From the NCBI GenBank assembly GCA_946894095.1, contig OX335649.1:12790001-12854000 (forward strand): a stretch of 64,000 nucleotides of DNA, in the 5' to 3' direction. This DNA comes from Incurvaria masculella (taxonomy: Eukaryota; Arthropoda; Insecta; Lepidoptera; Incurvariidae). Position numbers and translations under genes: made by a program. This document shows, one piece after another, positions 60,801 through 63,336 of the stretch. Numbering within the stretch: the stretch's first letter is position 1; every line of letters starts with the position of its first letter. The notes beneath the pieces were generated by a model. It was not told where the DNA came from. It did no database searches and saw only the letters and a list, made by a program, of their open reading frames with translations.

Positions 60801-63336
60801 AGCAACCATAATTACATTTGCAGACGATACAGCTATTATTTTTCAGGGTGCCAGCTGGGAGCAGCTACAGCTAAATATGGAAAAGGGGCTCGAGACGATT
60901 GCTAGCTGGCTCCAAAATAACCTACTGACTCTCAATATTTCCAAGACTAAACACATATGTTTTGGCTTAACGCAGGCAACCATTCCTGAAGCAATAGAAA
61001 TTAAAATCCACTCTTGCCAAACCAACCGTCAAAACATATGTAGCTGTAGCAATATCGAAAGAGTAGAAAAAATAAGGTATTTGGGTGTCATTCTGGACTC
61101 TAGGCTTTGCTGGACCGAACATATACAAACCTTAGCTGGAAGAATCAGAAAACTACTGCCAACATTTAAACGTCTGCGGCAAGTTACACCATATCCACTC
61201 CTAAGAACAGTATATTTCGCACTTTGCCAATCCCTCTTAAGCTATTGCATCCTAGCTTGGGGAGGAGGGGCAAAAAGTATTTTGTTAAAAATTGAACGTG
61301 CACAAAGAGCTGTGTTGAAAGTTATGCACATGCGACCCTTTCGCTATCCCACTGATCTTCTATATCAGGAGGCGAATGTACTTAGTGTTCGCCAGTTGTT
61401 TATTTCAGCAATGGTCAAGAAATTCCATAGAACTGCTTACCTAACATGCAATCCGGGATCGACAAGACCCAGTCGTTTAGACAAATGGCATATTCCACTC
61501 ACCAGAACTGCATTTGCACAAAGACACTATTCGTTTCTTGCTCCGTATACTTATTCTAAAATAAACCAAATTCTGCAACTCAAAACCCTCACACAAAGAA
61601 GTTGCGCCAAGTCACTCACCAATTGGCTTCTGAACCTAAATTATATTAACACAGAAAATATTTTTGTTATAATCAAATAAATACACCACAAATACAGACT
61701 AGAGACTAAAAACTCACTAAACTATAATATATTATTCTAGCTACATCAAAACAAATAAATATGATCCACGACTTATATTTTTAAATGAAAAAACATCACC
61801 TCTATATATATCTATCTATCTATCTATATATATAAAAACACCCTTGTTTACACGTGTTTACATATACATACATTAATACATTACATTATTGTCTTTATAT
61901 ATTATTTCTCATACATTACTAACGCCAACAGTGCACAATTAGTGCGACGAAAGACACTGACTCCCACAGCACAGGGAATCCTAGTGTGGGAGCCAGGGCT
62001 TAAAATACTACCTGTTCATCAAAACTATGTACTGTAACCCATGGTTGTAATTATACCGATGTATGTAATATTATGAACAAATAAATCTTTTTTACTTTAC
62101 TTTTTTAATAGAAAGATATATGCTCAATAAGAGAGTTTCTGATTATGTATTTGTACATCTACCGAGTATGGACTTGTGTATAGATTATCCCCAGTAATGG
62201 AATTCACTCAAATGAATTCTCAGTTACATATTAAGAGGTAAATCTTAAAAATAGACAGTCCATAGCGAACTATTAAATTTGAGACTCGGTGCGGACATGA
62301 GAGACGGAAGGGTCTGACCTGGCAGGTGAAGGGCTTTTCGCCGGTGTGCATGCGTTCGTGGTTCTTAAGGTGGTGGCTGGCGTAGAAGCCCTGCGCGCAG
62401 ATGTCGCAGCGGAACGGCTTGACGCCCGAGTGAATGCGCAGGTGCCGATTGAGGTGGCTCTTCTGCCGACAACAATAAGGCACATAATGTAACGGACGGA
62501 CCAACCTGACAGGTGTAGGGTTTTTCGCCCGTGTGCATGCGCTCGTGGTTCTGGAGTTGATGCTTGGCGTTGAACGACATCGCGCACACGTTGCACTTGT
62601 ACGGTTTGTAACCGGAGTGAATGCGCAGGTGCCGCGTCAAGTCGCAACGCTGAAAGACACAGAGGGTCACTCTACTGGAGGCTGGGCCCCGGACTTCAAT
62701 ATTTCCAAACAGCTATATATTCACGAGAATAAACCGGAGGTTTGGAGGAGGTCGTGACTTGTCAGTCGAGAAATTCCTTAAGGCCAAGCATCACCCCTGG
62801 AGGAGTCAAGAAATCTAAAAATAATAGAAAAGCATTTTATTTAGCCAAAAGTTACTACCAAGCAATTTCAGCCCCAATAATTTGCTCTATGACAATGTTA
62901 AGGTGAATAATAATGAATACACGAAGCGATAGGCCAGTTGCCAAACTTTAAAATATTTTACTATAAAAATGTTTGTGATACAAATAGTGTAATAACCTGT
63001 CCCATTACTTAAAAATCACTTGGATAGCTAATAACTGGATGAATTTCTTACAGCCAATCATAATAAAATATTTGCAATGAGATTTTCAATATAAATTATC
63101 TACCCTACTGATTATATTTTTGATGTAGCCAAAATAGTATAAAAGGTTAGCAATAGTCAACTGAACGGTGCAGTGAGGCGAGAGTCTAGCTCTCTCCATT
63201 TATGATTGTGAAAATAATTAGACTTGGATTTAGGTAGATTGTTATCATCTAATCCGCTCATAAACTTACCGCTATAAATCTTTTCGTGCATAGATTACAC
63301 CCGAAAGGTCTGTCGCCTTTATGAATCAGATTATGC
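57837..63336 (-). CDS. Gene C: C2H2 zinc-finger protein, 3' part only
   Basis: Related to genes A and B but on the opposite strand, with its 5' exons beyond the right edge. Minus-strand exons in order are 63270-63336 (67 nt), 62506-62649 (144 nt), 62319-62462 (144 nt) and 57837-58055 (TGA stop), with GT/AG splice sites. The 67-nt exon has the same size, phase and finger position as the 67-nt exons of A and B ([16 protein letters not shown]). The final exon completes a finger ([15 protein letters not shown]...H) and ends in a 50-residue acidic tail without further fingers. The two 144-nt exons are duplicates, and using only one at a time gives intact fingers. The intron at 58056-62318 contains a LINE. 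Probable nuclear DNA-binding protein; target unknown. No ZAD part is visible here. Confidence 0.87.
58321..58729. mobile_element. Harbinger-like MITE, truncated copy
   Basis: Matches the inner and right parts of 11600-12293 (ATTAAAGACTGATCAGT, GCGCTAGTAGCGCCACCC, GTGCACTCCGGCC). Lies just upstream, in coding sense, of gene C's last exon. Confidence 0.7.
58730..59657. other. Gene C intron, AT-rich
   Basis: Nothing recognised; 59938-60412 likewise, up to the LINE. Confidence 0.45.
59658..59937 (+). repeat. GGAC-tract interspersed repeat, copy 5
   Basis: In gene C's large intron; more diverged at its 5' end, with a clear GGACGGACGG tract and GTACGGAACCCTAAAA end. Confidence 0.78.
60413..61680 (+). 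pseudogene. Jockey-type LINE reverse transcriptase, 5'-truncated
   Basis: An open frame from about 60413 carries RT motifs in order: [47 protein letters not shown], the catalytic ITFADDTA, and the C-terminal [12 protein letters not shown]. It stops at 61680 after about 420 codons with no stops, but has no endonuclease and no start codon. Its 3' UTR runs to about 62095 (AATAAATC, then T-rich). It is a different family from the Jockey at 21-25 kb. It lies in gene C's large intron, antisense to that gene. Confidence 0.85.
61803..61835. repeat. (TCTA)n/(TA)n microsatellite
   Basis: TATATATCTATCTATCTATC run in the LINE 3' region. Confidence 0.7.
62319..62462 (-). CDS. Gene C alternative zinc-finger exon, copy b
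   Basis: Same length, phase and layout as the neighbouring copy a. It carries the back half of a finger ([13 protein letters not shown]), a whole finger (CDICAQGF...HERMH), a TGEKPF linker and the first Cys of the next finger. The acceptor is GTCGGCAG and the donor CAG|GTCAGA. Spliced straight after copy a it would give CQKSHL, a finger lacking its second Cys. Joined to the upstream 67-nt exon it gives a perfect finger. It is therefore either an alternative to copy a or a relic. Confidence 0.82.
62506..62649 (-). CDS. Gene C alternative zinc-finger exon, copy a
   Basis: Phase-0 exon with a good acceptor (TGTCTTTCAG) and donor CAG|GTTGGT. It encodes the back half of one finger ([13 protein letters not shown]), one whole finger (CNVCAMSF...HERMH), a TGEKPY linker and the first Cys of the next finger. 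It joins in phase to [10 protein letters not shown] upstream (12 residues between the second Cys and first His) and to VCNVAFSY downstream. Confidence 0.85.

Follow-up and report, generated by a model that had tools for sequence, protein, structure and literature searches.

Gene C of Incurvaria masculella carries two neighbouring, similar exons in the part of the gene that encodes its zinc-finger array. This raises the question of whether its transcripts use one of the two at a time, and whether the choice alters the DNA that the protein recognizes. We analyzed a window of 64 kb (C9:12790001-12854000, within a 552-Mb, 31-contig assembly). The explanation that we hold with considerable confidence is that the two are mutually exclusive tandem exons that would exchange residues contacting DNA, an undersized intron preventing the inclusion of both. 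Events of this kind are known; for this gene, a literature search (titles and abstract starts; open-licence papers) found no published description of the exon pair.

Two homologous exons in the finger array of gene C

The exons of gene C were joined from splice signals, by eye and with a script, including DNA past the window end. The model has 10 coding exons (69239 to 57837) and predicts a 575-aa product with either of the paired exons, E1 or E2. The N-terminus of this product matches the zf-AD domain (PF07776; E 2.4e-12, 47.3 bits, cut-off 28), and its C-terminus is a C2H2 finger array (PF00096 and PF13465 above cut-off). The gene C product is thus a putative lepidopteran ZAD-C2H2 DNA-binding protein.

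A sequence-only reading had described E1 and E2 as adjacent 144-nt, phase-0 exons of like layout and different sequence. The coordinates check (Table 1) and the splice sites are usable. E1 and E2 share 106/144 nt and 32/48 residues, with 16 residues differing in I. masculella. AG and GT are present at E1 and E2 alike, as read in I. masculella DNA only: E1 has the acceptor TTTCAG and the donor CAG/GTTGGT, E2 the acceptor GGCAG and the donor CAG/GTCAGA (slash, exon end).

Table 1. Positions in the window of the gene C exon pair, its surroundings and the exons at the matching place in genes A and B.
Feature	Position	Strand	Basis and remarks
Gene A, exon at matching place, single, 147 nt	13235..13381	+	sequence, plus-strand scan
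Gene B, exon at matching place, single, 147 nt	49909..50055	+	sequence, plus-strand scan
Gene C, constitutive exon before pair	63270..63336	-	splice signals, open frame; ends ...[10 protein letters not shown], first half of finger 4
Gene C, E1, first alternative exon	62506..62649	-	second half of finger 4, finger 5, first Cys of finger 6
Gene C, spacer intron between E1 and E2, 43 nt	62463..62505	-	read from sequence
Gene C, E2, second alternative exon	62319..62462	-	layout as in E1; zinc ligands intact
Gene C, intron 3' of E2, 4263 nt	58056..62318	-	contains antisense reverse-transcriptase frame
Gene C, terminal coding exon	57837..58055	-	starts VCNVAFSY; second Cys of finger 6 through stop codon

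We determined what each exon choice does to the fingers. E1 alone or E2 alone yields C-x2-C-x12-H spacing, as the earlier reading had it. Inclusion of both keeps the frame (624 codons including the stop) and, again as anticipated, joins TCQ to KSHL, leaving a finger without its second Cys. Omission of both breaks one finger, and retention of the 43-nt spacer shifts the frame and reaches a stop. Thus, only the one-exon forms give intact fingers. We propose that the pair arose by tandem duplication and that each transcript would contain one of the two, which would supply finger 5 flanked by half of finger 4 and the first Cys of finger 6.

Lepidopteran relatives carry one unit per slot

Used as a protein query, the finger region of the complete gene C protein in its E1 form gave 918 matches, of which the best 120 were taken up. 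Among the matches listed were 49 lepidopteran relatives, every row with at least 57% identity and each covering 83% or more of that region; these counts are of rows, not species, some rows being isoforms of one species, and six of the 49 (source lgn) were classed as lepidopteran by similarity only. The slot occupied by E1 or E2 could be read in 49/49 of these relatives, with 41 being E1-type, 7 E2-type and 1 both, and a single 48-residue unit was present in 48/49. E1 of I. masculella matches a common lepidopteran E1 form at 43/48 residues. The E2-type 48-mer was carried by S. frugiperda X2, S. litura X2, S. exigua, Mythimna, Arctia, Anticarsia X2 and Bombyx mandarina X1. The number of E2-type relatives is probably an underestimate, since the query was the E1 form and only the best 120 of 918 matches were taken up. 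The E1/E2-type pair is seen in several moth families.

In S. frugiperda, isoforms X1 and X2 are both 543 aa long; the 24 residues at which they differ all fall within residues 422-469, which is the 48-residue slot. A difference confined to the slot is the pattern expected of mutually exclusive exons. Note that the isoforms of the relatives are annotation, for the most part computed models. The relative with both units is a Choristoneura model labelled LOW QUALITY, in which E1 is followed by a read-through of ~11 residues (~33 nt) and then an E2-type unit; this spacer length is rough, and the model may have been corrected. No clean double-inclusion protein was present among the 49 relatives. 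The S. frugiperda isoform pair, the single unit in 48/49 relatives and the recurrence of tiny spacers (see below) argue together for mutually exclusive use of the exons, as had been proposed from the I. masculella sequence.

We also considered whether a closer orthologue lies elsewhere in the I. masculella genome. A query with residues 1 to 127 of the S. frugiperda relative gave 10 matches, of which the best two were gene C exons and 8 weaker ones lay elsewhere, and the idea was rejected. A search with E2 alone matched 10 zinc-finger proteins, none of which was taken as an orthologue. Separately, the X3 isoforms of S. frugiperda and Galleria (P0057 and P0063 versus P0059 and P0064) are without part of the linker preceding the fingers, a second alternative splice.

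E1 and E2 differ at helix positions that contact DNA

The zinc ligands and core slot positions are invariant in 41/41 E1 units, in 8/8 E2 units of other species (the 7 plus Choristoneura) and in both I. masculella exons. From E1 to E2 of I. masculella, helix position +3 changes in two fingers, D becoming H in finger 4 and Q becoming H in finger 5; the sequence-only reading had numbered these positions correctly. At finger 4 +3, D is found in all 41 E1 units and in the I. masculella E1; the E2 units of other species have G (7 units) or S (1 unit), and the I. masculella E2 has H. At finger 5 +3, every E1 examined has Q and every E2 examined has H, I. masculella included. At finger 5 -1, the E1 units examined have A, as does the I. 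masculella E2, whereas the 8 other E2 units have Q. Between the two I. masculella exons, 3/7 contact positions are changed versus 13/41 positions elsewhere, showing no clear concentration at the contacts.

By the usual rules of C2H2 recognition, such helix changes should alter base preference. With the zinc ligands kept and helix +3 changed in two adjacent fingers, the E1 and E2 isoforms should therefore prefer different DNA sites, although this altered preference is deduced from the residues. If the isoforms do bind different sites, one gene would provide two DNA-recognition codes, chosen at splicing. Because just 16 residues differ (24 in S. frugiperda), the two isoforms would allow the C2H2 recognition code to be tested cleanly on a natural pair, and proteins of the gene C type are already annotated in tractable species, e.g. 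Spodoptera.

History of E2

Apart from itself, the best match of E2 in the genome is E1 (70%), followed by a match of 60% (150 of 2044 candidates scored). A scripted Nei-Gojobori comparison of E1 and E2 gave dS 0.68, dN 0.26 and a ratio of 0.38. A tree of the slot (48 columns) placed the I. masculella E2 with the other E2 units (support 79/81), as did 81% of 200 bootstrap trees, the bootstrap being unsettled. The residues S-H-H at finger 5 +1 to +3, which it shares with most other E2 units, and the shared short spacer point in the same direction. However, the I. masculella E2 is closer to its own E1 (32/48 residues) than to the E2 units of other species (22 to 27 of 48), so a single origin of E2 across moths is only moderately supported.

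It is thus a real possibility, though not the one we favour, that I. masculella has an exclusive pair whose E2 came from a separate duplication of E1 or from gene conversion, and does not correspond to the E2 of noctuids, Bombyx and Choristoneura. Besides the closeness of E2 to its own E1, a run of 20 identical bases between the two exons would fit such an origin. We considered gene conversion from this run, but conversion and constraint are indistinguishable here, because the tract encodes conserved residues. A separate origin is a statement about history and is compatible with mutually exclusive use of the pair. In a gene tree with the slot removed, gene C and P0126 were placed outside Plutella and the rest, on long branches that may reflect false joining.

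A broader scenario would be one ancient switch, dating from an early ancestor of the sampled moths and kept by an intron too short to splice, by which a conserved regulator of the ZAD type (possibly lepidopteran cucoid) would deploy two DNA-recognition codes according to tissue or stage. We put this forward tentatively and consider it rather unlikely in its entirety.

E2 may be a minor or tissue-limited form

Six full-length lgn entries were all E1, with longest contigs of 1750 to 2660 nt, and 3 named entries that also list lgn were likewise E1. The full-length lgn entries are probably spliced transcripts, as their longest contigs are only of this size. The lgn source was listed for 0/7 E2 entries. 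Together, the E1 type of the lgn entries and the lack of lgn among the E2 entries suggest that E2 may be a minor or tissue-limited form. In the mechanism that we propose, E1, with the better polypyrimidine tract, would be the default exon, and E2 would be used in some tissue or stage.

These observations also bear on an alternative in which E1 is the working exon and the I. masculella E2 a rarely used or decaying duplicate, with no meaningful switch. Such a reading would account for the weaker acceptor of E2 (9/14 pyrimidines compared to 12/14 for E1), for lgn-sourced entries being exclusively E1, and for the departure of the I. masculella E2 from other E2 units at finger 5 -1 and finger 4 +3. 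However, the frame, splice dinucleotides and zinc ligands of E2 are all intact, and seven other species have annotated isoforms of the E2 type, with the zinc ligands kept in all 8 copies when Choristoneura is counted; loss of the ligands in relatives would have spoken for decay. The dN/dS of 0.38 between the exons also argues against decay, though constraint on E1 alone could in part explain this ratio. We therefore consider a decaying E2 improbable, and retain mutually exclusive use of two functional exons as the likely reading.

A spacer probably too short to splice would prevent double inclusion

The intron between E1 and E2 measures 43 nt (62505-62463), as originally reported, while the remaining introns of the gene C model span 87 to 4263 nt. 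The minimum intron in Drosophila is stated as ~45 nt in PMC2767349, the value used here; a literature search for the lepidopteran minimum intron size found no figure. Small spacers occur in three species, with 43 nt in I. masculella, 37 nt (inferred) in P0006 and ~33 nt in Choristoneura. Splicing across spacers of these lengths is unlikely, as they are probably too short. A branch point at the usual distance from the acceptor would lie no more than some 25 nt from the E1 donor in the 43-nt intron. We propose that joining of E1 to E2 is sterically prevented in this way, the spacer being below the size that the spliceosome handles; retention of the spacer would shift the frame. As for the suggestion that the short intron by itself enforces a choice, the intron would stop double inclusion, but it would not stop double skipping. 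The exon pair offers a simple way to ask whether mutual exclusion in insects can be enforced by an undersized intron alone.

The second spacer comes from P0006, an lgn entry with a contig of 1931 nt, in which the frame runs from non-coding sequence through E1 into a tail. The E1 protein of P0006 is identical to that of Plutella (P0068). Read in a shifted frame, the tail accommodates a second exon of the slot type, preceded by exactly 37 nt. Over 48 positions, this reading fits the I. masculella E2 at 35, Plutella E1 at 33, Bombyx E2 at 32, I. masculella E1 and Choristoneura E2 at 31 each, and S. frugiperda E2 at 30. The maximum in 2000 shuffles was 22/48 for any of the six slot sequences. Some positions misfit, e.g. 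the usual Arg at slot position 6. On this comparison, the presence of a second exon in P0006 is clear, its assignment as E1 or E2 type less so.

We also considered competing RNA structure as the control of exon choice. A 401-nt stretch around the pair folded no better than 100 shuffles (z -0.10), and this candidate was rejected for that stretch.

A transcript that contained both exons, and so encoded a longer array in which one finger is degenerate, would keep the frame and has a counterpart in the two units of the Choristoneura model, but it is scarcely credible given the missing second Cys at the join, spacers of 43, 37 and ~33 nt that are probably too short for splicing, the single unit in 48/49 relatives among the matches listed, and the LOW QUALITY label and read-through spacer of the Choristoneura model.

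Comparison with known splicing systems

Splicing selects the DNA-binding part of Drosophila lola, broad and fruitless, and of vertebrate E12/E47 and FOXP1. The fly genes lola, broad and fruitless select between alternative sets of 3' exons that each encode separate fingers, whereas gene C would exchange one internal exon inside the finger array.

Mutually exclusive exon clusters as in Kassiopeia/WebScipio are outlined in PMC3923563 as adjacent, homologous exons of similar length and the same frame, with conserved splice sites and one exon per transcript. The gene C pair resembles these in equal length, homology, frame and splice sites; in annotated relatives, one of the two appears to be used at a time. 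It differs from the clusters, as outlined there, in encoding C2H2 fingers and in an internal intron below the usual splicing size. In the duplicated OGDH exons 4a/4b, exclusion is enforced by branch points that lie close to the 5' splice site between the two exons (PMC7969005). Both are duplicated pairs whose exclusivity would depend on a constraint on the intervening intron. In OGDH, however, distant branch points restrict the intron, whereas in gene C the whole intron is just 43 nt; moreover, OGDH is an enzyme subunit and gene C encodes a DNA-binding protein.

Gene C and cucoid

The ZAD of gene C had as its best solved match 7pok, named LD15650p (E 1.1e-7), which did not settle an identity with cucoid. 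Four relatives among the matches listed, Bombyx mandarina among them, bear the name myoneurin-like. In PMC9810180 and PMC6783274, cucoid is described as a ZAD-C2H2 axis gene of culicine mosquitoes. The former reports its orthologues in Lepidoptera as single copy, and calls the GenBank name myoneurin, carried by Aedes cucoid, a misnomer. Like gene C, cucoid as presented there combines a ZAD with about five C2H2 fingers, its isoforms alter the C-terminal fingers, and the myoneurin name of the Aedes copy recalls that of the four gene C relatives. In contrast, the mosquito isoforms arise from alternative 3' ends, whereas those of gene C would arise from an exon pair. We regard gene C being the lepidopteran cucoid as a lead only.

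Neighbouring finger genes and mobile elements

Genes A (5677-18054, plus strand), B (42412-50933, plus strand) and C (57837 onward, minus strand) are related finger-protein genes that form one cluster with a common exon layout. The terminal exons of A (17857-18054) and B (50736-50933) are nearly alike. At the place of the pair, A and B have one 147-nt exon each, in agreement with the first description of the locus, and a plus-strand scan around these exons found no second copy. A ZAD-ZNF gene on contig C1 (L024 4720-6600) has one 48-codon exon at the matching place on the scanned strand. As in the I. masculella E2, this exon starts with KSYLETH and contains KPFRCD.

By eye, several frames in the window resemble mobile elements. 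A 442-aa reverse-transcriptase-like frame (60352-61680, plus strand) lies antisense within the intron that follows E2 (4.26 kb). On the minus strand, a 350-aa open frame (46569-47621) that resembles an intact mariner-type transposase sits between gene B exons. Long open frames resembling a gypsy-type retroelement (620 and 877 aa) and a LINE-type element (930 and 430 aa) occur at 37050-41546 and 21222-25174, also on the minus strand.
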